A stretch of 19,612 nucleotides of DNA from NCBI GenBank assembly GCA_004298605.1, contig SCPW01000358.1:1-19612 (forward strand), in the 5' to 3' direction. The translations under genes were made by a program, and so were the position numbers. This stretch comes from Gallionella sp. (GTDB lineage Bacteria > Pseudomonadota > Gammaproteobacteria > Burkholderiales > Gallionellaceae). Shown here in pieces: positions 5,061 to 19,109 of this stretch. The notes below the pieces were generated by a model. It saw nothing but the letters and a program-made list of their open reading frames with translations, did not search any database and was not told the origin of the DNA. How positions within the stretch are numbered: position 1 is the first letter of the stretch; each line of letters begins with the position of its first letter.

Positions 5061-5073
5061 CGCGCTATGCGCG
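5061..5073. terminator. Weak hairpin between two convergent genes
   Basis: CGCGC-TAT-GCGCG (5061-5073) sits where the GIDE-domain gene (ending 5050) and the GH13 gene (ending 5065 on the other strand) meet. A 5-bp GC stem without a proper T-run on either side is a poor intrinsic terminator, so this is only a candidate. Confidence 0.2.
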
Positions 5074-6417
5074 GTTAAATTTCAGGATAGCTCCGCTATA
5101 AGGCTGCAACCCGAAGTGGTTTTGGCGCCCTTCTTTGACATCTGCATATCCGGCCAGCAGCATCGCATCTTGAACTGCCGGGCAGGGAATCTGTTTCTGG
5201 CGGGGGCCGCAGTTGATTGCGACCATTATCATCGAATCTCCTTTCGAATAGCGATAGGTCAAAACATGCCCCTCCAGAAGTGCTATCGCGCGGGGCTCCG
5301 AGGTGAATAATTCAATGTTGTCATTCCGGATATGGATAAGTTTTTTTACCCATGCGGCCATATCTTCCCCGGCTTCCCACGCCATGGGTTCACGAAAGTA
5401 ACGATCCCTTTCGTATCGGCCTGCAGGAAAATTTTCTGTCTGCGATTGCCCCCGTTCGCTGCCGTAATAGATGATGGGAGGATAGGGCAAGCTGAGTTGC
5501 AGAAGATAACCCAGCGCCAGCGCGTTCCGGTTTTTGCGCGAGATAAAACCGGCTCTTTCCATGTCGTGGTTATCCAGGAAGGTCGGCAGTAAATAACCAT
5601 TTTTACGCGACGCCTGTTGCGACCGGATCAGGTGCGTGATCGCATCGGTCGCGGGCTGCCCGGGCTGTGCCAGAAATTGCCGCAGCGCCAGGCTCAGCGG
5701 AATGTTCAATTCGCCATGCAGGTAACGGGAGAGGGTTCCGATTTCCCCCGATTCGTGCCAGTTCTCGCCCAGCAAAAACACCTGCGGGTGGCGCGCGCGC
5801 AAAAAGCCGGTCAACTGTTCCCAGAATGCTGCCGAAGGGCGTTTCGCATGGTCGAACCGTATGCCGTCAAAGCCAAATCTCAGCCAGTGGTCGAGCATGT
5901 TTTTCAGGAACTCGATTACATCGGGAAATTCCAGGTTCAGTTCCGGCAAATTACGGTCGCCGTAAAATCCTTTAAACCCGCCCGCCCGGTCGTAATGGAA
6001 CCAGCCCCGGAAGGGTGAGCACGCATTGTCGAGCGCCTGCCGGGCAGGGTCGGCGCCGATATGGCAATGGGTGAACGGCAGATCCAGCACCACGCGCATG
6101 TCGCGTTGGTGGGCGGCATCAATCAACTGTTCGAGTTGTTGCGGGCTGCCGAAACACGGGTCGATTTTCAGAAAGTCGGTAGTCCAGTAGCCGTGATATT
6201 TGCTGCCTTTAAAAAATGGCGTCAGCAGCAGGGCGCCGATGCCCAAGCCATGCAGGTAATCCAGGGATTGAATAACGCCATCCAGATTACCGCCCATCCG
6301 GTGGCGCAATTCCTGTGGGTAATGTGGCCCTTTGGAGTATTGGAAGCAATTTTTACCGGTGGCAAAACGGTCGATCACGATGTGATAAAAAGTCGATCGG
6401 CTCGCCCAGTGCAACAT
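5065..6417 (-). CDS. GH13 alpha-amylase-family glycoside hydrolase
   Basis: Predicted to hydrolyse (or transfer) alpha-glucosidic bonds in maltodextrins or related glucans. From ATG 6417 the product is 450 residues with no signal peptide, so probably cytoplasmic. Using that numbering, GH13 region I reads VVLDLPFTHCH (about 109-119), region II GFDGIRFDHAKR with nucleophile Asp189, region III FLLGENW with acid/base Glu218, and region IV FLDNHD ending at Asp285. The start FYHIVIDRF and GGNLDGVIQSLDYLHGLGI resemble cyclomaltodextrinases/neopullulanases without their N-terminal domain. Region I has Thr where most members have Asn (DxxxNH), which may alter calcium binding. An in-frame ATG at 6465 would add 16 residues overlapping the kinase gene; I prefer 6417, one base after the kinase stop (TAACATG). 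Last gene of the long operon. Confidence 0.85.
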   Translation of the reverse strand: MLHWASRSTFYHIVIDRFATGKNCFQYSKGPHYPQELRHRMGGNLDGVIQSLDYLHGLGIGALLLTPFFKGSKYHGYWTTDFLKIDPCFGSPQQLEQLIDAAHQRDMRVVLDLPFTHCHIGADPARQALDNACSPFRGWFHYDRAGGFKGFYGDRNLPELNLEFPDVIEFLKNMLDHWLRFGFDGIRFDHAKRPSAAFWEQLTGFLRARHPQVFLLGENWHESGEIGTLSRYLHGELNIPLSLALRQFLAQPGQPATDAITHLIRSQQASRKNGYLLPTFLDNHDMERAGFISRKNRNALALGYLLQLSLPYPPIIYYGSERGQSQTENFPAGRYERDRYFREPMAWEAGEDMAAWVKKLIHIRNDNIELFTSEPRAIALLEGHVLTYRYSKGDSMIMVAINCGPRQKQIPCPAVQDAMLLAGYADVKEGRQNHFGLQPYSGAILKFNRA

Positions 6418-6418
6418 G

Positions 6419-7522
6419 TTATGGCGCCGTGCCCCGGCAAATGGATAACGCCAGTTCGCCGCCATGGCGCCGCAACCATTGCAGGCACAGGATGTCTTCC
6501 TTTACGAACCCCAGGCGGGGATCGACGCCGCCATGTGCAAGCCTCAGTTTACGGTGGATGGCAGCAAGGTATCCCAGGCGCATGAACGGGATCAGCAGTT
6601 CCTGCCAGCCGTCGGGCATGGCCGCCTGCGACCGGATAGACGACAACAACACGGTCGCACTGCGTGCCACTTCACCGGGAAGTTTACGGTAATCGACACA
6701 AAATGTGGCGCACAGCCAGGCCGTATCCTGCAACGGAAAGCCATCGCTTATCGAATCGAAGTCGAAGATTATGCTGACGCTGTCGTCATGGGCAAAACCG
6801 AAATTGGATGGGGACAATTCCTGGTGGATCAGGCAGCGGCTCCAGCACTCGATGCGCCGCTTGTGCTGGTCGAGGCCTTCGCGCAAATCTGCGACCTCCT
6901 GTTCCAGAAACGCCAGGTTGAGATTGAGCATGGCACTGGCGGCGCATCCGCCGGCGCGCGATTTAATAAATGCGTTGAACGCGCTGAATGTAAAGTCTTC
7001 CGCCAGTTGCAACCGCCCATCCGCAGCCCGCGATAACCGGTGGTGCGCTGGCGGCAATGCGGCGGGATTGATGGCGGGCAGTGCCTGTTGCAACTGCCCA
7101 TAACGTTTACCCACCTGAACGAGCTGTTGCCCGCTGCCGCGATACCGTTGCGCCTCCACCCACCGGTAGCAGGTAAGCAGGGCGCCGTCATCCCACAACA
7201 CCCCCCATGGCTGGCATCGGGCATGGCCGGGTTCGGCAGTGGGCGCCAATAACCGGGGAACAAAGGGAAACGCGGGATCGTGGTACAGGTAATCCAGAAT
7301 GGTTTTTTCTGCCAGCTTGCCCGCGATGCCGCCGCTGCCCGGCTTCGACAGTTTAACCGCCATCTGGTCATAAGGAGCCGGGGCGCGGCACTTCAGGCGA
7401 TAAACGCGGTTGTTGCCGTCGTGTACCTGTTCGATCTGCCCCACTTCATCGAGCGGGTAGGCGCTTATCAGGGATCGCCGCAGCTTGCCTTCCAGTGCGG
7501 CATCCCGCAAATGGCCCGCCAT
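6419..7522 (-). CDS. APH-fold phosphotransferase-like protein with altered catalytic loop
   Basis: A 367-residue protein of the aminoglycoside phosphotransferase/choline kinase-like fold. Numbering from ATG 7522: a lysine in MAVKLSKPG (K57) fits the nucleotide-binding Lys, LIHQELSPSNFGF (232-244) is the catalytic loop, and IFDFDSISDGFPLQD (about 252-266) is the metal-binding DxD segment. The catalytic loop normally reads HxDxxxxN; here it is H233-Q-E235-L-S-P-S-N240, with Glu for Asp, so activity is uncertain. The downstream GH13 gene starts one base after its stop, suggesting coupling; a sugar or glucan-derived substrate is plausible (compare maltokinases) but unproven. A TTG at 7549 would extend it by 9 residues; neither start has a strong ribosome binding site. 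Confidence 0.7.
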   Translation of the reverse strand: MAGHLRDAALEGKLRRSLISAYPLDEVGQIEQVHDGNNRVYRLKCRAPAPYDQMAVKLSKPGSGGIAGKLAEKTILDYLYHDPAFPFVPRLLAPTAEPGHARCQPWGVLWDDGALLTCYRWVEAQRYRGSGQQLVQVGKRYGQLQQALPAINPAALPPAHHRLSRAADGRLQLAEDFTFSAFNAFIKSRAGGCAASAMLNLNLAFLEQEVADLREGLDQHKRRIECWSRCLIHQELSPSNFGFAHDDSVSIIFDFDSISDGFPLQDTAWLCATFCVDYRKLPGEVARSATVLLSSIRSQAAMPDGWQELLIPFMRLGYLAAIHRKLRLAHGGVDPRLGFVKEDILCLQWLRRHGGELALSICRGTAP

Positions 7523-7579
7523 TATGAAACCGGTGATTCTTTCCGCCAACAGCCTGCCGGGCTTGAGGGAAATCGCGTT

Positions 7580-8185
7580 TCAGCAACAATTATGCACACT
7601 GGAATTGCAACAGCTTTCGCCGTAAACATCACAACAGGAATGGCACCCGCAATCATGGTAGGTGTTGTGCTGATGATGGTGGCCGCAACAGTGCTGCGTC
7701 TGGCCGTGGTGCCCGCAACCCTGCGGGTGCTGGGGGTACTGGGGGCAGGGATAAGACGACCGGTAGCCGCCGGTGAACCCTTGCACCAGTTGGTTGCTGC
7801 CAGCCAATGCCGCGTTGATTGTATCGATACCCAGGCGCAGCATATTGCCGAGGCTGTCAAATAACCCGCTACCGGTGAACCTTGCGGGCATCGCGCCATA
7901 ACCCGGCATGGGCGGCATCATCTCCTGCGGCGGCATCATCCCTTGCAGTGGTGGCATGATATTTGGCATCGGTGTGCCGAACGGCGGCATATTGAAGCCC
8001 ATATTGGCGCCCGGAGCTGCCATAAAGGGCTTGTTGCCCGCACTTGTTGCCGGATTATTGGGCTTGCCGGGAAAAGGCGAAGCACCGCTATCTTTCGCCG
8101 GGTTTGCCTTCGGCTTGGCGCTGGCGCCAGATGTTGCCGTTGCCGCCCTGGCGGCGGGTTTCTTTTTTTGGGGTTGGGTAGCCAT
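7580..8185 (-). CDS. Unknown tripartite protein: basic tail, Met/Pro-rich middle, Cys/His-rich end
   Basis: Not recognised. The 201 residues fall into distinct zones: a Lys/Ala/Pro tail (1-50, with QKKKPAARAATA, like histone H1-type or PhaF-type basic tails); a Met/Pro-rich stretch (about 55-101, repeated MPP); one amphipathic helix (about 107-137, FDSLGNMLRLGIDTINAAL); and a C-terminal zone (147-201) with 12 Cys and 11 His, ending in CC. No signal peptide or membrane helix. ATG 8185 has GAGG about 9 bases upstream; an upstream ATG at 8227 overlaps the preceding gene and lacks such a site. The C-terminal zone could bind metal or cross-link by disulfides. Third gene from the operon end, before the kinase. 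Confidence 0.75.
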   Translation of the reverse strand: MATQPQKKKPAARAATATSGASAKPKANPAKDSGASPFPGKPNNPATSAGNKPFMAAPGANMGFNMPPFGTPMPNIMPPLQGMMPPQEMMPPMPGYGAMPARFTGSGLFDSLGNMLRLGIDTINAALAGSNQLVQGFTGGYRSSYPCPQYPQHPQGCGHHGQTQHCCGHHHQHNTYHDCGCHSCCDVYGESCCNSSVHNCC

Positions 8186-8220
8186 TGGGTTTGCCTCGTA
8201 GTTTGTGGTAAACGTGTCTG

Positions 8221-8904
8221 TCAGCAACTGATAATTTCACACCACCTGACCCGTGTGATGGCGTTAATGGATAACACCACCAGGTGGGCGCCCGGCTGGG
8301 TGGAAATAATGCATTCCTTCACATGGTAGCCGTCATCGGTAAACATCTTGCCCCAGGCCATCATGGTGGCTTTGCTGTCTATCACCAATACACCGGCTAA
8401 CGCTGTTAACGGGACCAGCGGGTTCATCTGCATGTATTCGATGGAAAGATGTACGCAGCAACCGCCGCCGATCACGGTGTCTTTCATACCGATGGCGGCC
8501 TTGTTGGCGGCGACCGCCTGACGCAGATAACTGGCGCCCCGCATCGGGAGGTGCGCGTCGATTGCCGCCTTCTCGTCCATGTCCGCTGCGGTTGCTTCAG
8601 GCGGGGAAATCAAATCCATCAACGCAAACGCTTTTGCTCTCGCGGGATCATCCGATGCCGCCGTGTTGTGGGCGCCCTTGCCAATCTTCCCGGGGGTAAT
8701 TCCTCCGCCGGCAGCGTTCGGTCCCACCAGCAATTCCTTCTCGATTTTCCGGCAACTGCGGTGACAAGTGCATTGTGCGGCGGGATGGCAGCAGGAAGCG
8801 CAGAAGCCGTGGGCATGTGGCGCATGGACGCCCTGCGGCGCGAAATGCGGGTGCATGGCCTGCGCCGGTTGCATCATCGGCCCGGTCGGGTATTTTGGGT
8901 ACAT
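8221..8904 (-). CDS. Unknown Cys-rich protein, paralogue of the next upstream gene
   Basis: Not recognised. 227 residues, no signal peptide. The N-terminus (1-34) is Pro/His/Met-rich; residues 35-51 form a Cys cluster C35-x2-C38-C39-x5-C45-x-C47-x3-C51 suited to a metal knuckle; a linker and a helical stretch follow (about 87-140). Residues 143-227 form a domain shared with the protein encoded at 8927-9379, with HLSIEYM, a Trp, DDGYHVKE, PGAHLVVL and the terminal RVRWCEIISC. The first four Cys positions plus C47 match the paralogue residue for residue. Start ATG 8904 has AGGAGA about 8 bases upstream, and the gap to the upstream gene is 22 bases. Confidence 0.8.
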   Translation of the reverse strand: MYPKYPTGPMMQPAQAMHPHFAPQGVHAPHAHGFCASCCHPAAQCTCHRSCRKIEKELLVGPNAAGGGITPGKIGKGAHNTAASDDPARAKAFALMDLISPPEATAADMDEKAAIDAHLPMRGASYLRQAVAANKAAIGMKDTVIGGGCCVHLSIEYMQMNPLVPLTALAGVLVIDSKATMMAWGKMFTDDGYHVKECIISTQPGAHLVVLSINAITRVRWCEIISC

Positions 8905-8926
8905 GGTTTGTTCTCCTGGCTATAGA

Positions 8927-9379
8927 TCAACAACAAACGGCTTCGCACCATCTCAACCGCGCGGTGCAATCCGCAACTACAAGCTTGATAACAGCGCCGG
9001 GCGACACGGTGGCGAAGTTTTCCTTGATCTGGTAATCGTCCGGTATGGAGGCGATGTTCCATGTGGCTGTCGCCCCGTTTTCCGTGATGGTCACGTTCAG
9101 GGTTGGCGCCGCGTCTGTTTTCAGGTACTCAAGCGACAGGGACGCATTTTCCAGGCCGCCGACAAAAGCGTTTTTTGTCGTGGTGGTGGCATCCGCCACT
9201 ATTTCCTGGGGTAGTTTCATATACGACGATGGCTGCGCGCACTGGCACCATTGCGCCGGCTGGCAGCAACTGCCGCAAACCATGGGCTGATATGGCATCG
9301 TGTAATATTGCCATTGATGGGGGTATCCGTAGTGGCCGTAACAGCATGGGGTGTACGCATTAGGGTGAATATGACTCAT
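8927..9379 (-). CDS. Unknown Cys-rich protein, shorter paralogue
   Basis: Not recognised. 150 residues. The N-terminus (1-34) is rich in Tyr, His, Gln and Pro with an early CC pair; residues 35-47 hold C35-x2-C38-C39-x5-C45-x-C47, identical in spacing and position to the 227-residue paralogue downstream. Residues about 79-150 are the shared domain: SLSLEYL, ATWNI, DDYQIKE, SPGAVIKLVV and the end RLRWCEAVCC. This copy lacks the central linker of the longer paralogue. Composition recalls coat or cross-linked structural proteins, but that is inference. A strong ribosome binding site (AGGAG, 8 bases) precedes ATG 9379. No signal peptide or membrane helix. Confidence 0.8.
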   Translation of the reverse strand: MSHIHPNAYTPCCYGHYGYPHQWQYYTMPYQPMVCGSCCQPAQWCQCAQPSSYMKLPQEIVADATTTTKNAFVGGLENASLSLEYLKTDAAPTLNVTITENGATATWNIASIPDDYQIKENFATVSPGAVIKLVVADCTARLRWCEAVCC

Positions 9380-9443
9380 GGCCTCTCTCCTGACGATAAA
9401 TGGGTTGTCCGCAATTGATTGATCTGTGAATCGTTTGGTCCGT

Positions 9444-9638
9444 TCAGCCAGGCGTTTCCCTGGCGCTTTCCGCTTCTTCGGGTTCTTCGCTGGTCATGTC
9501 CCTGATGGCTTCCACGCCGGAGTTGAGAAATGTGCCGACCACACCGGTAATTTTGTTGACCACCTGACCATCGAGAATTTCAGTGGTGGTTTTATTGATT
9601 ACCCTGTTTATAAGACCCAAGACTTTGACAGCCATCAT
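9444..9638 (-). CDS. Small unknown helical protein
   Basis: Not recognised. 64 residues from ATG 9638, or 63 from the next ATG at 9635; AAGGAGA lies just upstream of both, and spacing slightly favours the second. Residues 3-48 are hydrophobic/amphipathic helix material (KVLGLINRVINK and NKITGVVGTFLNSGVEAI), followed by a strongly acidic tail (EEPEEAESARE). There is no Cys or His, unlike its neighbours. It lies 12 bases after the upstream gene and is therefore cotranscribed. The amphipathic helix plus charged tail would suit a small scaffold or surface protein of a particle or inclusion, which is a guess. Confidence 0.7.
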   Translation of the reverse strand: MMAVKVLGLINRVINKTTTEILDGQVVNKITGVVGTFLNSGVEAIRDMTSEEPEEAESARETPG

Positions 9639-9650
9639 GTCTCTCCTTGA

Positions 9651-10430
9651 CTATACCGGCGTTCCCCGGCCCGGGGCCGGTTGGCCGGGATCGGATACCG
9701 ACAGGACAACGGGTATCCGGTACACCCCCTGTTCTGACAACACTAACCAGCCGCGGTAATTATCCGCCGGCGCCGCAGCGGGAATTGTACCCTTGAGCAC
9801 AAATTTCTCGAAATCTGCCGGGGCGATGGCAATTTCGTTCGGCGTTACGGAAAACGTGCCCGCATCCAGCACGGCCTGCCGTGCCTCGCCCACAAAGCCC
9901 TCTATGCCGATGCGGATCATTTTATCCGCAGTTAACGAATCGTTGTTGATAGAGAATGGTAACGCCGCTTCAGCGCCCGGAAACAGCGGCAGGCGGTTAA
10001 ACAGGTAGTAGCCCGGCGCGGCTCCGCCGTTCTGCGCCGTATCGCCGGGCGATTGCGCCGGTGATGTTCCCGTTTGCCCGTGATGTTGCGGATTTTCCGG
10101 AGCCTGGCGGTTATCGGCATAACCTTGGCCTGCGGCATGATTGCCCATTGCCGGGTTCAACATGTTGGCGTTGCCGATTTTGTCGAGCACCTGGCCTTTA
10201 AGGATGGAGCCCAGCCGCGCGACAACATCGAATCCGATGCCAATGCCCGCTTCCGCCAGATCCAGGCCCTTATTCACCACTTCTTCGAAATGGGCGCGAT
10301 TGTGCAGCAATTCATCACCGCTTTTTCCGGTTGATGCATCTGCCGTGCCGCGTTCATTTCCGGGCGCCTGTTTATTGTCCGGCGCAGCCGCGCTGATCCT
10401 GATGGCGCGCAAGGTGGCGGTTTTTTCCAT
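9651..10430 (-). CDS. Unknown protein with helical segment and C-terminal beta domain
   Basis: Not recognised. 259 residues from ATG 10430, whose A is the last base of the upstream stop (TAATG), so translation is coupled; the open frame to 10448 is inside the upstream gene. Layout: a short start, a polar linker (15-42), an amphipathic helix (about 46-78, FEEVVNKGLDLAEAGIGIGF), a long low-complexity Gln/Gly/Pro linker (95-138), and a C-terminal beta-rich domain (140-247). That domain has the pattern TFSVTPNEIAIAPADFEKF, then VLKGTIP, then NYRGWLV, which looks like an Ig-like sandwich. No Cys, no signal peptide. Gene follows the 89-residue Cys/His protein, whose helix resembles this one. Confidence 0.75.
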   Translation of the reverse strand: MEKTATLRAIRISAAAPDNKQAPGNERGTADASTGKSGDELLHNRAHFEEVVNKGLDLAEAGIGIGFDVVARLGSILKGQVLDKIGNANMLNPAMGNHAAGQGYADNRQAPENPQHHGQTGTSPAQSPGDTAQNGGAAPGYYLFNRLPLFPGAEAALPFSINNDSLTADKMIRIGIEGFVGEARQAVLDAGTFSVTPNEIAIAPADFEKFVLKGTIPAAAPADNYRGWLVLSEQGVYRIPVVLSVSDPGQPAPGRGTPV

Positions 10431-10699
10431 TATTGGCAGCATCCGCAACAGTGATAGGTTTCAGGGACGCAATGCCGGTGATAAACATGATGGGGGCAAC
10501 CGCAGCCGCAATCGCCGTGCTGCGGGCAACAGTCATGATGCTGGGGGTGTTCGCTGTGCCACACGCTGCCTTCCACGATAGTCCGCACAACGCGCGCGCC
10601 GCCATACAGCACCGAAGTCGCCAGGTTGATCGCGCCGCCAAATACATCCGTGAGGCCGGAGTGGCCGGGCTGCCCGCAGCCATAGGGGTAATGGTGCAT
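10430..10699 (-). CDS. Small unknown protein with extreme Cys/His tail
   Basis: Not recognised. 89 residues containing 11 Cys and 13 His, about a quarter of the chain. After HHYPYGCGQPGHS comes a single amphipathic or weakly hydrophobic helix (about 15-45, DVFGGAINLATSVLYGGARV), then the tail (47-89) with clusters such as HHDCCPQHGDCGCGCPHH and a terminal CCGCCQ. The tail resembles that of the 201-residue protein at 7580-8185. Metal (Zn, Cu, Ni) binding or disulfide cross-linking is plausible; the helix is too short and glycine-rich to be a confident membrane anchor. GGAG about 8 bases upstream of ATG 10699 lies within the end of the preceding gene, 2 bases away. Confidence 0.75.
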   Translation of the reverse strand: MHHYPYGCGQPGHSGLTDVFGGAINLATSVLYGGARVVRTIVEGSVWHSEHPQHHDCCPQHGDCGCGCPHHVYHRHCVPETYHCCGCCQ

Positions 10700-10701
10700 T
10701 G

Positions 10702-11472
10702 TTATTCTCCACTCATGATGCGATTTTCAGAAAAATTATCCGCTGCAGGACGGTTGGGAACCTGGAACGCGGCTCTGGGGATGCCGAAGGATAACGAGGC
10801 CATGGATGGATCAGCCGCCAAACCGGCAGCGAAAATGCTGGCCGGCATTCCGGCGCCCGCCCCGGGGTGGGGCGCCGCGTGTTCCGGAGGCTGACGGTAA
10901 TGGCCTGCCGCATGTCCGGGTTGCGTGCAGCACGGGCTTTGCACATTTTCACTGCAATGCGATGGTATGGCCGGATTGCCCGCAACGCTGGGCGCCGGAT
11001 AACTTTTATTATCGGCGCGTGCCTGCTCGCGGCGGGCGCGCTCCCTGGGAATGATGGAAGTCTGGCCGTTCAATTGCAGGCGCGCGACTTCGATACCCAG
11101 CAGGCGCGCATGCAGGGTATAGCTCGACGGAATGCAGAAATCTTGGTGGATACCCACCGAAATGGGCGGCAGGGTTTTGATATTGATGCCGACTTCGGGC
11201 AGCTTTTGCAAACTCACATTCACCATCGGCAAGTTGGTGACATTGAATTTGGCGATTTGCAATGGCTCGATATTCTTGACTTCGCTGACATGCAAGGCCT
11301 CGATCGTCAGCGGATCGATATGATTGACTTCCTTCAGATGGACCGCGACAGGCTCGATATTTTTGACTTTATCGATGCTTTTTATCGTGAGTGCCGAATC
11401 GGCATTCAGCGTCAGCTTCGAGTCTGATCTCAACCTGAGAACCGAGCCATCGACTACATTGATGTCGCCCAT
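10702..11472 (-). CDS. Unknown solenoid-like repeat protein with low-complexity C-terminus
   Basis: Not recognised as a characterised family. 256 residues. Residues 1-32 are alternating hydrophobic/polar (beta). Residues 36-80 contain repeats starting VKNIEP, VNHIDP and VKNIEP (13, 16 and 16 residues); residues 81-110 are three exact 10-residue units, LPMVNVSLQK, LPEVGINIKT and LPPISVGIHQ, of the form L-P-x-[VI]-x-[VI]-x-[LI]-x-x. Such regular alternation suggests a beta-solenoid or stacked strands. Residues 111-145 form a compact conserved-looking segment, and 146-256 are Pro/Ala/Gly/His-rich with one CC pair (181-182). No signal peptide. ATG 11472 is preceded by AAGGGGG at about 9 bases; the gap to the upstream gene is 24 bases. 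Confidence 0.8.
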   Translation of the reverse strand: MGDINVVDGSVLRLRSDSKLTLNADSALTIKSIDKVKNIEPVAVHLKEVNHIDPLTIEALHVSEVKNIEPLQIAKFNVTNLPMVNVSLQKLPEVGINIKTLPPISVGIHQDFCIPSSYTLHARLLGIEVARLQLNGQTSIIPRERARREQARADNKSYPAPSVAGNPAIPSHCSENVQSPCCTQPGHAAGHYRQPPEHAAPHPGAGAGMPASIFAAGLAADPSMASLSFGIPRAAFQVPNRPAADNFSENRIMSGE

Positions 11473-11496
11473 CGCAATACCCCCTTGCGTTCCTGT

Positions 11497-12207
11497 TTAA
11501 GGAACAATTCCCGGCCAGGAATAATTCAATAAAATAATCCGCGCCGTGGCCTTGACGCTGTTATCGAGCGTCAGATGCGCTTGAACCGTGGCGAATGCCG
11601 GTGAAAAACCACTGTTCGGCGCCGTATAAAAACCGTTGCTGTCGATCGCTCCGACCCCTGTTGCTGTCCACGTGACGCCGGTCAACGGCGTGCTGCTGAT
11701 AATGGTGCTGAATTGTTGGTGCTTGTTGCTGGGGTCGATGTATTGATTATGCACGCTCGCGCCGTCCTGGTAGTAAAGGTAGGCGACCTGCGGATAGATT
11801 TCAAGCTTCGCCACGGGTTCCGGCTCCGGCCCGTGCCCCACCAGGGTGACTTTGGCGTAAGCGCGCCGGGTAGGGTCGGCTTTGGCCGTGGCGATGATTA
11901 TATCGGTGTGCCCGTGCGGGACGCCGATTTTTGGCGGCGCGATATACAACCCCGATGGGTCGATGGTACCTTTCCCGGGGCCTCCGCTGATGTCGGTGAC
12001 CTGCCAGGTAACGCTGTTGCTTGGTGCGTTATACACCGTGGCTTCGAAACGCACCTGTGTGTTGATGGCGTCGGCGTAGCGTTCGTCGGCAAAATAGACT
12101 TCCGCGCTGGCGGGCTGTACTTCAACTTCAATCTGGTGGCGGCAAGTCACCTGATGGTGCATCACCGGATGGCAGCAATGTTTTCTTGCGTAAGCAGGCC
12201 AGTTCAT
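11497..12207 (-). CDS. Unknown protein with two Ig-like domains
   Basis: 236 residues. The first 24 are Cys/His-rich (KHCCHPVMHHQVTC), not a signal peptide. Then come two tandem Ig-like (BIG-type) domains, about 25-123 and 133-227. Each has an early strand with Val-x-Pro or Tyr-Pro, a VTWxx core (66-70; 178-182) and the hallmark Gly-x-Ile-Asp-x-[SN]-Gly-[LF]-Tyr-x-Ala-Pro (80-91; 186-197). Such domains are common in bacterial surface proteins that bind or space other domains; here there is no export signal, so an intracellular structural role or unusual export must be considered. The start overlaps the upstream stop by 4 bases (ATGA), indicating translational coupling. Confidence 0.8.
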   Translation of the reverse strand: MNWPAYARKHCCHPVMHHQVTCRHQIEVEVQPASAEVYFADERYADAINTQVRFEATVYNAPSNSVTWQVTDISGGPGKGTIDPSGLYIAPPKIGVPHGHTDIIIATAKADPTRRAYAKVTLVGHGPEPEPVAKLEIYPQVAYLYYQDGASVHNQYIDPSNKHQQFSTIISSTPLTGVTWTATGVGAIDSNGFYTAPNSGFSPAFATVQAHLTLDNSVKATARIILLNYSWPGIVP

Positions 12208-12656
12208 GGCTCATTTTCCGCCGTCAGTTTACCCCCGCATGTCGGCGTTTTACAGTGGCCATCGTCTTCTTCATCCAGGTCGCGGTCCGACAGGTTGAAC
12301 TGGCCCGAAACTCTGCCTTCCAGTTTCATCTCCGTCGAGCACTCGACTTTCGAATGCACTTTGGCCTTGATGCCTTCAGAGCCAATGACGCCTTTCAAAT
12401 CCAGCCCGGCTTTGTTCACATTGACCTGGAAACGGTCCAGGCTGAGGGGAAAGCCGCCAATAGAAGCAATGACCGGCTTCCGTTTCAAAAAAGGGATCGC
12501 CAGGCGGATGGGTATCTCGCCAACGTATCCCTTGAACGGCCCGAGTTCGCCGTGAAAGCTGCCATGGAGTGAGGTTTCAAAATCCAGAGGATTGATCGTC
12601 GTGTCCAGGCTGATGGAAGGGCAGCTTTGCATGCGACCGAACGCCCTGAATTTCAT
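12204..12656 (-). CDS. Unknown beta-rich protein
   Basis: Not recognised. 150 residues with many alternating hydrophobic/polar segments, e.g. LSLDRFQVNVNKAGLDLKGV and STEMKLEGRVSGQFNLS, indicating mostly beta structure. The C-terminus is acidic (DRDLDEEDDG) and ends with a short Cys pair (HCKTPTCGG). No signal peptide or membrane helix. GAGGAG lies just before ATG 12656, which overlaps the preceding stop by 4 bases, and its own stop overlaps the next gene by 4 bases. The first three genes of the operon are thus tightly coupled and probably made in fixed ratio. Confidence 0.75.
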   Translation of the reverse strand: MKFRAFGRMQSCPSISLDTTINPLDFETSLHGSFHGELGPFKGYVGEIPIRLAIPFLKRKPVIASIGGFPLSLDRFQVNVNKAGLDLKGVIGSEGIKAKVHSKVECSTEMKLEGRVSGQFNLSDRDLDEEDDGHCKTPTCGGKLTAENEP

Positions 12657-12862
12657 GGCTGCTCCTCAAAACCGGATTGCGTTGGAGATTCCTGGTCTTC
12701 CGGATACATGCGGTCGGCAAGGTCGCTGCACATGGCGTCAATCTCCCGGTTGAGCAGGTCGAAACCTTTGAGCGCGTGACGTATCTCCTCGCAACTCTCG
12801 CCGCTGATTTCCAGCATGACCAGCGGGCCCAGCCTGATTCTCAGGTTCATCCTAGCCGACAT
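12653..12862 (-). CDS. Small unknown protein, first gene of the operon
   Basis: Not recognised. 69 residues: a short beta-like start (MNLRIRLGPLVMLEISG), then a helix of about 30 residues (SCEEIRHALKGFDLLNREID) and an acidic, disordered end. ATG 12862 has GGAGA about 9 bases upstream; an internal ATG at 12850 is less well placed. It is the promoter-proximal gene of the twelve-gene operon, about 110 bases after the predicted transcription start, and overlaps the next gene by 4 bases. Confidence 0.65.
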   Translation of the reverse strand: MSARMNLRIRLGPLVMLEISGESCEEIRHALKGFDLLNREIDAMCSDLADRMYPEDQESPTQSGFEEQP

Positions 12863-12910
12863 AATGCGGTTCTCCGTAAAAGCACTGAGCCAGTACTCAG
12901 GGCAATCAAT

Positions 12911-12938
12911 GCGCCATCAGGAATGCCGCCTGGTGCGC
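12911..12938 (-). other. Hairpin in the operon leader RNA
   Basis: In the minus-strand transcript, GCGCACCAGG pairs with CCTGATGGCGC across a 7-base loop, with one bulge and one G-U pair. It lies about 50 bases upstream of the first start codon. No T-run follows, so it is not an obvious terminator; it may stabilise the mRNA or take part in regulation. Confidence 0.4.
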
Positions 12939-12979
12939 TTGTGGCAAGCCTGCTTTCCAACAGGGATGCCCAGCGCAAA

Positions 12980-13009
12980 TTTATACTCCAGTGGCCTGAT
13001 GTATGTCAA
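12980..13009 (-). promoter_or_regulatory. Sigma70 promoter of the unknown operon
   Basis: Read on the minus strand, TTGACA (13009-13004, perfect -35) is followed after 18 bases by TATAAA (12985-12980, five of six). Transcription would start near 12973, leaving a leader of about 110 nt before ATG 12862. It is the best-matching promoter in the window and suggests substantial vegetative expression. Confidence 0.65.
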
Positions 13010-13212
13010 TGAATTGCTCATTGCCCGATCCCGCGCATCGGGTATTGTCGGCAAATTGCCATGCAATACTCCGTGCGGCAACTGGCATCTCAGCCGCACC
13101 TTGACGTTATATGGCGACTCGGGCGAACATGGGCACGGTAATTCCCGTTTCAAACAGATCGACCGGTATCCCGCACATACCCGCATCCATAACCCGATAA
13201 TGAGGCAGTGAC

Positions 13213-14697
13213 ATGGTTCGCATTAAACAATCCACTGATTGCGATGTACTCATCGCGGGGGCAGGGCCAGCGGGTGCGGTGGCGGCATTTTATCTGGCCG
13301 GCTCGGGGTACAAAGTGTGTGTGCTGGATAAGGACCGGTTTCCCCGCGACAAGGTATGCGGGGATTTTGTCGGGCCTGTAGGGCTGGTTGAATTGTTGCG
13401 CCTCGGCGTTACACGGCAGCCCGCATACCAGCAGAGCAACAAAATTTTCAGCGCATCCTGCTATCTTGATGGCGGGCAACTGGTTTCGGCGCCCATACCG
13501 CCTATTGATGGCTTGCCGCCGTTTGGGCGGGTGATACCCCGCATGCAACTGGACCAATGGATTCTGGAGGCCGCGCAAGGCGCGGGCGCGACGATACTGG
13601 AAGGTTATCGCGTCAAGGATGTGATGCTGCATGATGATGCCGTTATGGTCGTTGCGGAATATGGCAAACAAACATCGCGCTTGCGCGCGCGCCTGCTGAT
13701 TGGCGCCGACGGCAGCAATTCCATCGTGGCGCGCGCGCTGCGCGGCCACGCACCCGCCGACCATGATCGTATTGTTGCGATTCGCGCTTATTACGAAAAC
13801 GTCGCGGGCCCGCACGATCAGGCTGACTTATATTTCAGCGGCGACAGCTTCCCGGGTTATTGCTGGTTGTTTCCAACCGGCGGGGGTGGTGCGAACGTGG
13901 GGGTCGGTGTGGCATCGCAAACAATGCCGAAGACCAAGTTCGCGTTAAAGTCGCTGTTGCAACAACTGATTGAGCAGGATCATGCTTTGGGCAGAAGGCT
14001 GCGTCATGCCAGGATCGTAACCAAAGTCGGAGGTTGGCCGCTAACGACCTATAACCACCGCTTGCCCATCGTGTGGGATCGCGTGATGCTGGCGGGGGAT
14101 GCGGCCGGATTGATTAATCCGCTGAATGGGGAAGGCATCCAGTACGCCTTGCTCAGTGGGCGCTGGGCCGCCCATTATGCGGTCCAGGGCTTGTGCCATG
14201 ACACTTTGGCCCAATCCCATCTCATGCCTTATGCGCGGACAGTGGAAAGCGAACTGCGATACGACATGTCCATTTCCAACATGATTGTGCAATTGATCCG
14301 TAACCGCAGTTTGAACCCCTTGTGGTTGCGCGCCTTGCAGGTCATCGGCACGGCCGCGCGCGAACAGCCAGGCTACGCCGCTGTCGCGGGAGGCGTTCTG
14401 GCCGGGTTGATTCCTGCCAATAATTTGCTCGGGCAGAAAATCATCTGGGGCTCAATCAAACAGGCGGCGATATCACTGGGCGGCGAGGCGCTTATCCGTT
14501 CGATTTATGATCCGGCAGGTTCCATGCGTGATGGGTTTGATGTGAGCAAGGCAGGCGTAAAAATGGCGTTTGACACCATGCGCAATCCGCTGGATTCGTT
14601 GAAATGGGGAATGGGGGTAACGGGAAGTGCCGCGGAACTGACGAAACAGGTTTATCGGGATGCCGCTGGGAGAGTGACCGCGAAGCGTAGCGTTTGA
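13213..14697 (+). CDS. FAD-dependent oxidoreductase, geranylgeranyl reductase family
   Basis: A 494-residue flavoprotein. The N-terminal FAD motif is DVLIAGAGPAGAVAAFYLAG (11-30), with the acidic strand end VCVLDKDRFPRDKVCGDF (35-52) in which the Lys-Val-Cys-Gly segment is typical of geranylgeranyl-reductase-like enzymes. Later come IGADGSNSIVARAL (about 163-176) and VMLAGDAAGLINPLNGEGIQ (about 290-309), the second FAD-binding motif. The C-terminal 150 residues are mostly helical with hydrophobic stretches, possibly membrane-associated. Relatives reduce isoprenoid double bonds or oxidise/halogenate other substrates; the substrate here is unknown. GAGG is placed just before ATG 13213. It is divergent from the unknown operon and may share its regulation. 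Confidence 0.85.
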   Translation: MVRIKQSTDCDVLIAGAGPAGAVAAFYLAGSGYKVCVLDKDRFPRDKVCGDFVGPVGLVELLRLGVTRQPAYQQSNKIFSASCYLDGGQLVSAPIPPIDGLPPFGRVIPRMQLDQWILEAAQGAGATILEGYRVKDVMLHDDAVMVVAEYGKQTSRLRARLLIGADGSNSIVARALRGHAPADHDRIVAIRAYYENVAGPHDQADLYFSGDSFPGYCWLFPTGGGGANVGVGVASQTMPKTKFALKSLLQQLIEQDHALGRRLRHARIVTKVGGWPLTTYNHRLPIVWDRVMLAGDAAGLINPLNGEGIQYALLSGRWAAHYAVQGLCHDTLAQSHLMPYARTVESELRYDMSISNMIVQLIRNRSLNPLWLRALQVIGTAAREQPGYAAVAGGVLAGLIPANNLLGQKIIWGSIKQAAISLGGEALIRSIYDPAGSMRDGFDVSKAGVKMAFDTMRNPLDSLKWGMGVTGSAAELTKQVYRDAAGRVTAKRSV

Positions 14698-14908: not shown

Positions 14909-15667
14909 TTAAACATGCACGATAAGACCCACCGCATAAATGGTAGCCACGCCGGCCCCAATCAGCAGGACTTGCTGTATGGTGTCGCGCAGTTGGGTGC
15001 GCTTGTGCAGGCCCGGGATCAGGTCGGCCACCGCGACATAAATCATGCTTGCCGCAGCCAGCGCCAGCAACGTGGGCACAATGCTTTGTGCGGATTGCAA
15101 GGCAAAATAGGCCAACATACCGCCCACCAGCGTCGCCAGGCTGGATAGCAGATTGACGCGCAAGGCCTGTGCTTTACTGTAACCGGAATGCAGCAAAATC
15201 ATGAAATCGCCGACTTCCTGCGGGATTTCATGCACGATGATGGCCAGTGCGGTGACGATACCCAGATGCACATCAGTCAAGAACGCGGCGGCGATGATGA
15301 TGCCGTCGACAAAATTATGAAAAGTGTCGCCGACCATAATCATGGCGCCGCTGCGCCCGCTGGTATTGTGCTCATGCGCCTCGCAGTGGTCGTGGTGGCA
15401 ATGCCGCCACAGCAATAATTTTTCCAGCGTAAAAAACAGCAGGATGCCGACCAGCACGGTGCCGCTCACCGATGCCGCGTTGCCGCTCAGCTCTATCGCC
15501 TCGGGCAGAATATTGAGGAATACCGCACCGAGCAACGCCCCGATAGCGTAGCTGACCAGCGCGCTGATCCAGCGCATGTGGGCGCTCAACGCGAACAGGG
15601 CGGCGCACAACACGCTCAGCACGCCACCGACAAGACTGGCCGCGATGATCCACAACAAAACGGACAT
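14909..15667 (-). CDS. ZIP family divalent metal transporter
   Basis: A 252-residue inner-membrane protein with about eight hydrophobic helices, of the ZIP (ZupT/SLC39-like) family that imports zinc, iron or related divalent cations. The paired metal-site helices carry GDTFHNFVDGIIIAAAF (113-129) and IIVHEIPQEVGDF (143-155). Between helices 3 and 4 lies a His-rich cytoplasmic loop (RHCHHDHCEAHEH, 88-100), usual for metal capture or regulation. Expressed from an extended -10 promoter just upstream; no clear ribosome binding site precedes ATG 15667. Substrate cannot be told from sequence. Function may be unrelated to the Cys/His-rich proteins of the neighbouring operon, from which it is separated. 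Confidence 0.92.
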   Translation of the reverse strand: MSVLLWIIAASLVGGVLSVLCAALFALSAHMRWISALVSYAIGALLGAVFLNILPEAIELSGNAASVSGTVLVGILLFFTLEKLLLWRHCHHDHCEAHEHNTSGRSGAMIMVGDTFHNFVDGIIIAAAFLTDVHLGIVTALAIIVHEIPQEVGDFMILLHSGYSKAQALRVNLLSSLATLVGGMLAYFALQSAQSIVPTLLALAAASMIYVAVADLIPGLHKRTQLRDTIQQVLLIGAGVATIYAVGLIVHV

Positions 15668-17690: not shown

Positions 17691-17775
17691 GCGAAAGTGG
17701 CGGAATTGGTAGACGCACTGGATTTAGGTTCCAGCGCCTTACGGCGTGAGAGTTCGAGTCTCTCCTTTCGCACCA
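17691..17775 (+). tRNA. tRNA-Leu (anticodon UAG)
   Basis: The acceptor stem GCGAAAG (17691-17697) pairs with CTTTCGC (17765-17771), followed by discriminator A and an encoded CCA. The anticodon stem CTGGA/TCCAG encloses the loop TTTAGGT, giving anticodon TAG. The long variable arm (GCGCCTTACGGCGT) and the sequence TTCGAGT in the T arm are as expected of a class II leucine tRNA. It reads CUA and probably other CUN codons. Confidence 0.96.
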
Positions 17776-17810
17776 GCACCCGATTCAACCTCAACTCAAG
17801 GAAATACAGT

Positions 17811-19109
17811 ATGTCCAGCGTAGAAACCGTAAGCGCGTTAGAACGTCGCCTTAACGCATCTATCCCCCAGCAGGCCATTCGCGGCGAGGTGTTATCCCGC
17901 CTGAAGAATATCGGGCGCACCGCAAAAATTGCCGGTTTCCGCCCGGGCAAAATCCCTGCCAGGATTCTCGAACAGCACTACGGCGCGCAGGCCCATCAGG
18001 AAGCATTGGGCGATGCGCTGCAACGCTCGTTTGCCGAGGCCGCGCAAACCAACAACCTGAGGGTGGCGGGTTACCCGAAATTTGAAGTCAAGACCAGCGA
18101 TATGAATGCCGATCAGGTCGAATACAGCGCAACTTTCGAGGTGTATCCGGAAGTGGCGATCGATGACCTGTCCGGCGAGACGATAGAACGCCCGGTCTAT
18201 GAACTGACGCAGGCCGATGTGGCTAACACGATTGCGACATTGCGCAAGCAACGCGCCACGTTCGAGCGGGTGAGCCGCGACGCACAGGCCGAAGACCAGG
18301 TGCATATCGACTTTACCGGCAGGCTGGACGGTGAGGTTTTTCAGGGCGGCGAAGCCAAAAACTATGCGTTCGTGTTGGGTGTGGACCGCATGTTGCCGGA
18401 GTTTGAAGCGGCCATCATCGGCATGAAGGCCGGTGAGACCAAATCGTTCGACATGACTTTTCCGGACGATTACCACGGCAAGGATGTGGCGGGTAAACAG
18501 GTGACTTTCACCATTGCGCTGCATAGTGTCGAAGCCCCCAAATTGCCGGAAGTGGATGCCAAATTTGCCGAGTCTGTCGGCATCGCGGGCGGCGATGTCA
18601 GCAACCTGGAGGGTGAAATCCGCGTTAATTTGCAACGTGAGGTGGCGCGCCGCCTGAGAGCGCGCAACAAGGAAGCGGCAATGGAAGTCTTGCTGAAAGC
18701 CGCCAGATTTGATCTGCCAAAAACCCTGGTGGAGTGGGAAATGCAGAACCTGATGCGGCAAACCGCCCAGGATATGGAGGCGCGCGGGATAAAGATGAAG
18801 GATGTGCCGCTGTCGCCGGAATTGTTTGCCGAGCGCGCCGCAAAACGCGTCAAGCTTGGCCTGATCCTTTCGGATCTGACGCAGAAGCACGGTTTGAGGG
18901 CCAAGCCCGAGCAGGTGCGCGCTTTGGTGGAGGACAATGCGCAAAGCTACGACCAGCCCGAGGAGGTGGTGCATTGGTATTACGCGGATTCTTCCCGCCT
19001 TCAAGAGATCGAAAACCTGGTTATGGAAGAAAACGTTGCAGCTTGGGTGATGGGGCAGGTGAAGACGGCGGACAAGAACGTCACCTTTAACGAATTGATG
19101 GGGAACTGA
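17811..19109 (+). CDS. tig: Trigger factor, ribosome-associated chaperone
   Basis: A 432-residue trigger factor, which binds ribosomal protein L23 at the peptide exit tunnel and assists folding of new chains. The ribosome-binding signature is [21 protein letters not shown] (about residues 38-58). The FKBP-type prolyl isomerase domain lies at about 155-245 ([20 protein letters not shown], later [20 protein letters not shown]), followed by the helical substrate-binding arms. ATG 17811 has AAGGAA at 17798-17803, 7 bases away; the open frame continues upstream only through the tRNA. clpP follows after 4 bases, the usual tig-clpP order. Confidence 0.97.

Follow-up and report, generated by a model that had tools for sequence, protein, structure and literature searches.

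Introduction

Phasins are the granule-coating proteins found on polyester granules, and the spore coats of Firmicutes combine Cys-rich coat proteins with an APH-fold kinase of the CotS type. Together with the endospore appendages of Bacillus (S-ENA and L-ENA, including Ena1B) and the archaeal bundling-pilus subunit AbpX, these are the described systems with which we compare a set of ten consecutive minus-strand genes, here named A to J, from Gallionella sp. The set occupies positions 7580-12862 (~5.3 kb) of a stretch of 19,612 nucleotides, contig SCPW01000358.1 of assembly GCA_004298605.1, which we call the window throughout. The assembly amounts to 2.3 Mb in 462 contigs and is 86% complete with 4% contamination. 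We found all ten families in four of the four genomes that we read closely, that of the window and three metagenome-assembled genomes (MAGs), and none of the ten proteins gave an above-cut-off match in Pfam or in NCBIfam. A search of PubMed Central, which leaves preprints and most subscription papers outside, found no literature on such a cassette.

The cassette resembles the spore coats of Firmicutes in having small Cys-rich proteins with no apparent export signal and, in the window, an adjoining APH-fold gene; it differs from them in that no coat-protein family was matched and that an APH gene stands beside the cassette in only one of the four genomes. With phasins it shares short amphipathic segments, here in E and J, in proteins that lack a transmembrane segment; phasins are not known to carry Cys/His tails or jelly rolls, and the phasin family models of Pfam and NCBIfam gave no match for E, F, G or J. 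The comparison with the Bacillus appendages concerns H and I. These sit in a ten-gene set and lack a match to PF13157 (Enas), their hosts are different (Nitrospinota, Calditrichaeota and proteobacteria), and the structural match of I to the appendage subunit ties with matches to other jelly rolls. PF13157 returned no row for H and I of the window (E≤1), of the Nitrospinota locus (E≤10) or of the Calditrichaeota locus carrying them (E≤0.01), and a search of the window's own genome with this family gave no match, the control being likewise silent. As for AbpX, a profile of the C-terminal domain of F brushes this subunit in the PDB (E 0.014-0.017, above any accepted threshold); F differs from it in having no signal-like segment by hydropathy.

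The ten-gene set recurs in distant phyla

One scan of a collection of species genomes with a profile of B yielded three loci, belonging to a Nitrospinota MAG (L006), a Calditrichaeota MAG (L007) and a Gammaproteobacteria MAG (L008). By BLASTP, A to J are complete in L006 and L008, and L007 carries A to E, its contig ending there. In the Calditrichaeota MAG a profile search located H and I on another contig (L045), which reads F-GGR-G-H-I-J, where GGR stands for a geranylgeranyl-reductase-family flavoprotein gene. Gene order across these genomes is either shared or rotated: A to J run uninterrupted in the window, while L006 reads 310aa-200aa-A-B-C-D-E-F-GGR-GGR-G-H-I-J, the Calditrichaeota MAG shows 310aa-200aa-A-B-C-D-E and F-GGR-G-H-I-J on its two contigs, and L008 has the rotated order H-I-J-A-B-C-D-E-F-G. 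The genes labelled 310aa and 200aa are described below.

Identities of the window proteins to their orthologues in L006, L007 and L008 are 54-66% for A (BLASTP), 37-52% for B, 46-61% for C, 44-53% for D and 31-56% for E, the weakest orthologue being E of L007 (31%, E 5e-4). F is 37-42% identical to the copies in L006 and L008 and 31% to that in L045; the corresponding values are 34-56% and 33% for G, and 41-43% and 39% for H. J has relatives in L006 (E 7e-11), L008 (E 5e-8) and L045 (E 8e-4). A to G of the window are closest to those of L008 (42-66% identity). Because all ten have relatives in other phyla, the core open reading frames (ORFs) are more than chance frames.

Co-occurrence beyond these genomes was addressed by comparing the contig sizes in the lists of B, D and I relatives, with the best 120 of 271 matches used for D and the best 120 of 186 for I. 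The B and D lists had equal-sized contigs for six of ten B clusters (longest contig at least 4.5 kb; null mean 0.04, maximum 2), the B and I lists shared three (null mean 0.03, maximum 1), and the D and I lists shared nine (null mean 0.17, maximum 2). We infer that equal-sized contigs shared between lists are the same contig. Taken together, ten families found in four of four genomes, none of them placed except for an immunoglobulin (Ig) match of C, favour the sequence-only reading of this DNA, which had taken the genes for one unit, over its stated alternative, that they are not conserved as a set or belong to separate known families.

Core proteins and known families

That the ten proteins cannot be placed in a characterised family was borne out by the Pfam, NCBIfam and PADLOC scans, with the Ig-domain match of C as the exception. 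The anti-phage defence models of PADLOC matched none of the ten proteins at E≤1, and the shell-protein families of bacterial microcompartments, gas vesicles and encapsulins gave no above-cut-off Pfam match for any of A to J. Against PHROG, only C had rows below E 0.1, namely an Ig domain (E 2.5e-5, residues 171-212), a major head protein (E 0.017) and a family of unknown function (E 0.04); eight of the other nine proteins had no row at E≤1, and G had only one at E 0.29. PDB profile searches covered B, C, D, F, H and I. They gave no rows for B and D, chance rows only for H and C, and for I chance Cys-rich rows only, such as cGAS. No relatives of B, D or I were found in viral contigs, nor of B or D in phage and plasmid records. 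In the core proteins no 19-residue window exceeded a hydropathy of 1.47, a value that speaks of hydropathy only, no signal-peptide predictor having been applied.

The products of the first half of the cassette are varied. Gene A (12653-12862, 69 aa) conserves the pattern RLGPLV...DAMC.DLA.R.YPE. Gene B (12204-12656, 150 aa) has 32 relatives at E≤0.001 in the protein collection, the window's own counted; its product was judged beta-rich by sequence, AlphaFold2 (AF2) giving no usable fold (predicted local distance difference test score, pLDDT, 37.7). Gene C (11497-12207, 236 aa) probably encodes two Ig/Big-like domains after a conserved H...C.HQ N-terminus, and the PHROG Ig-domain match agrees with the two Big-like repeats recognised by eye. 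Ig-like domains had been proposed more widely in the set; they stand for C only, on this single match. Gene D (10702-11472, 256 aa) has 271 relatives at E≤0.001, the window's own counted, and some of the matches listed are named from Nitrospira sp. T9 and from Nitrospirales. Its product opens with short beta-like motifs in repeats (I.P..V...V, by eye), continues with a stretch that is conserved and ends in a tail that varies. Gene F (9651-10430, counted from the ATG at 10430, the ORF opening at 10448) encodes a conserved hydrophobic N-terminal segment and a C-terminal beta domain, and gene G (9444-9638, 64 aa) a helix-like protein.

Cys/His-rich segments were confirmed by composition in E, H, I and J, and the CC-x-P motif by alignment in family I. 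The product of gene E (10430-10699, 89 aa), with 11 Cys and 13 His, consists of an amphipathic segment and a Cys/His-rich tail. That of gene J (7580-8185, ~201 aa from its ATG, the ORF opening at 8227) has 12 Cys and runs from a Lys/Pro-rich start through a Pro/Met/Gln linker and an amphipathic segment to a Cys/His-rich tail. Genes H (8927-9379, 150 aa) and I (8221-8904, 227 aa) are paralogues (28% identity, E 3e-10) whose products have 11 Cys each; H joins a Cys-rich N-terminus to a domain ending ARLRWCE..CC, and I joins a Cys/His-rich N-terminus to a jelly-roll domain (IGGGCCVHL...RVRWCE..SC). There are 186 relatives of I at E≤0.001, the window's own counted, and the conserved Cys of the family lie both in the N-terminal connector and near the C-terminus. 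The AF2 model of I (mean pLDDT 76) has eight strands, and I, and by homology H, is predicted to be a jelly roll with Cys-rich extensions; matches of I in BFVD are to generic jelly rolls.

To evaluate the amphipathic helices noticed at first sight, we compared hand-picked segments with 1000 shuffles each. The segments of A, E and J stood, their values being reached by 9, 5 and 10 shuffles respectively; that of G (59) was marginal and that of F (251) failed. The proposal that all of E, F, G and J bear such helices was accordingly rejected.

Enzymes near the cassette

The commonest partner of the cassette is the GGR-family flavoprotein, present in three of the four genomes: in the window, in L006 (two copies) and in L045. 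Co-occurrence of this and the following enzymes was judged within the cassette loci. In the window its gene (13213-14697, plus strand) diverges from the operon, and its product scores 224.3 bits against TIGR02032 (cut-off 158.8), with 3oz2 as best PDB relative (E 1.5e-25). The flavoproteins of L006 and L045 (172.7, 175.8 and 196 bits) are also above the cut-off, and their genes sit between F and G. They are only ~31% identical to the window copy, so that independent recruitment is possible. The GH13 hydrolase gene (5065-6465, minus strand; PF00128, E 7.2e-44) has a counterpart by the cassette in one other genome (a 30% relative in L007), making two of four, and the APH-fold kinase-like gene (6419-7549, minus strand; PF01636, E 3.7e-11) occurs by the cassette in the window alone, with no match in L006-L008 or L045. 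We therefore read both as lineage-specific add-ons that would lie outside the conserved unit. By eye, all three acidic residues of catalysis are kept in GH13. The APH protein shows HQE (HQELSPSN) where HxD is usual; from its sequence it is possibly a divergent or inactive kinase. The three family labels given by the sequence-only reading were thus confirmed by profile, while its claim of a set conserved with these enzymes largely held for the flavoprotein and failed for the kinase and GH13.

Two further genes precede A in both L006 and L007. One, of 310 aa (L006:8169-9098, L007:7531-8460), is 44% identical between the two genomes and has conserved Asp-rich stretches. It had no Pfam row at E≤10, and nine of its nine rows against PDB profiles were solanesyl-pyrophosphate (solanesyl-PP) synthases, all weak (E 0.017-0.36); its sequence probably marks it as a divergent member of the polyprenyl-synthase family. 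The other, of ~200 aa (L006:9130-9735, L007:8456-9055), separates the 310-aa gene from A; its copies in the two genomes are 35% identical, and it has a CxxC pair and matched no family above cut-off. Upstream of the cassette in L008 (3235-7482) we observed genes for a protein with a caspase domain (PF00656) and for a subtilase (PF00082).

Gene layout of the window

The sequence-only reading had placed twelve genes on the minus strand with a flavoprotein gene facing them, and all of these lie at the coordinates it gave. A and B, as well as B and C, share 4 bases, the gaps from C to J measure 2 to 64 bases, and E and F have 1 base in common provided that F starts at its ATG at 10430. The longest ORFs of APH and GH13 have 47 bases in common, which a later GH13 ATG at 6417 would reduce to about one base. 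GGAG-like stretches precede several starts (by eye), and the spacing is what would be expected of a single transcription unit. Promoter-like sites were no commoner than chance in the window (6 found against 6.7 expected); terminator-like sites numbered 23 against 12.8 in shuffles, many of them inside genes. At gathering scores, a tRNA was the sole Rfam match in the window. This tRNA-Leu gene (17691-17775) overlaps the start of the longest form of an ORF (17697-19109) whose trigger-factor family was confirmed by profile match, and the true start of the trigger factor is probably further downstream.

Rarity, flanks and probable horizontal transfer

In six of seven genome searches, the only match was the genome at the centre of the search. 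Among 199 relatives, B was found in a single genome, its own, and the B profile matched one genome each among 148, 194 and 146 relatives of the three other genomes, always the centre genome. The D profile matched one genome among 398 of the phylum and one among 192 relatives of genome G200, again the centre genomes, with first-look candidates partly scored in many genomes. C was found in 2 of 101 relatives, the second match being to repeats of an 864-aa frame in genome G083 and not to an orthologue. In this open frame (locus L003) there are two or more repeats that resemble the first domain of C, with 44% identity.

Within the genus, 22 relatives were searched. Seven loci keep SpeE-LemA-GIDE with 67-90% identity to the left flank of the window, which is therefore native; the other 15 relatives have no GIDE match and are uninformative. 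GH13, APH, A to J, GGR and ZIP are absent from all seven stretches beside SpeE-LemA-GIDE, six of which show at least 12 kb beyond GIDE and the seventh (L036) only 536 bases. Hence the block is private to the window genome among those compared. Both the rarity of the genes and their absence in the same genus fit horizontal transfer of the cassette. The ZIP-family metal transporter gene (14909-15667) adjoins the block, and none stands beside GIDE in the same-genus loci; its inclusion as a member of the cassette was considered and dropped as unsupported.

A proposed structure and its rivals

We tentatively propose, as the best of the possible readings but with limited confidence, that A to J build a self-assembling, Cys/His-crosslinked coat or fibre in the cytoplasm; it may surround a hydrophobic core, in some cases one with an isoprenoid. 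The cassette would move horizontally, and its genes would together specify a single multi-protein structure produced in the cytoplasm, with H and I as the repeating subunits of a lattice or fibre. Neighbouring proteins would be cross-linked by the start of C and by the segments of E, H, I and J that are rich in Cys and His, either through zinc-type sites while still in the reducing cytoplasm or through disulfides once released. E and J, and perhaps G, would use their amphipathic segments to anchor the structure on a hydrophobic core or a membrane, while A, B, C, D and F may be adaptors, spacers or layers. Where a lineage also has the polyprenyl-synthase-like gene and the GGR flavoprotein, a reduced isoprenoid lipid may be part of this core or membrane. 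Of the coat, inclusion or storage particle envisaged by the sequence-only reading, there remains a conserved, unrecognised set that looks structural; a storage function found no support, the kinase and GH13 fall outside the unit, and the assembly is still something we infer.

A number of observations weigh against our proposal. Cross-linking and core binding are putative roles read from composition alone, and the cassette is known from its genes only, not from a particle, transcript or protein. E of L007 has only 5 Cys and 5 His. The jelly roll of I matches Ena1B no better than TNF-type jelly rolls, and a Foldseek search with its model returned carbohydrate-binding modules first and Ena2A 39th. 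The segment of A is amphipathic but not hydrophobic, that of F is no more amphipathic than its shuffles and that of G is marginal; because of the results for F and G we lowered our confidence in the coat to its present level, and after the shuffle comparison we also slightly lowered that in the bolder form given below and slightly raised that in the appendage-type fibre and the metal particle. In L008 a GGR gene is missing from the neighbourhood of the cassette and the 310-aa gene has no match in genomes G201 and G000, so an isoprenoid core is not general.

The chief rival of the coat is a fibre of the endospore-appendage type, in which the jelly rolls of H and I polymerise through Cys-bearing N-terminal connectors into disulfide-linked pili, with A to G and J as anchor and tip. 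Its proteins would need no export signals, the fibre coming to the outside only at cell lysis or in a resting stage. We consider this rival unlikely. A cytoplasmic sink for Zn, Cu or Fe, bound by the Cys/His-rich tails of a metal-binding or storage particle, would account for the Cys and His counts of E, J, H and I, for the conserved Cys spacing of family I, and for a ZIP-family transporter gene that follows the window GGR and is unseen beside GIDE in the same-genus loci. Yet the tails of E differ strongly among genomes, simple metal binding needs no jelly-roll or Ig-like families, and by eye no ZIP is found among the ORFs of L006-L008, whose flanks were not profile-scanned. We regard this explanation as quite improbable.

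Phage-derived DNA was also considered, as the remnant of a tail, tailocin, capsid or injection apparatus in which D would be the fibre shaft, C a decoration, and H and I domains of the tip or shell. The jelly rolls do resemble tail-fibre domains in BFVD, although these matches are generic, and C matches the PHROG Ig domain and, weakly, the end of a major-head-protein family. The silence of PHROG on nearly all the other proteins and the lack of relatives in viral contigs (B, D and I) and phage records (B and D) make this origin very improbable. Finally, a fragmented MAG whose relatives lack the genes could have brought together chance neighbours or mis-binned DNA, not a unit of the window genome; however, the same contig carries the SpeE-LemA-GIDE flank so similar to that of same-genus genomes, and the ten genes recur together elsewhere, which leaves this explanation with hardly any credit.

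Implications

If a fibre like that of the endospore appendages proved true, the structure would be less novel. A bolder form of our coat proposal, which we think rather unlikely, is that the cassette encodes a prokaryotic organelle or surface structure not described before, a jelly-roll and Ig-like lattice, cross-linked by Cys and His, with amphipathic seating on a core that possibly contains isoprenoid, and specified by a ten-gene kit that moves between phyla. The naming of D homologues from Nitrospira sp. T9 and Nitrospirales means that a search in enrichment cultures may be feasible, and a cassette of this size could be expressed whole, turning the identity of its product into a single experiment. 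Nine of the ten families have no usable match in the curated libraries scanned, yet they stand together in distant phyla, and as such they would be the parts list of a cell structure.

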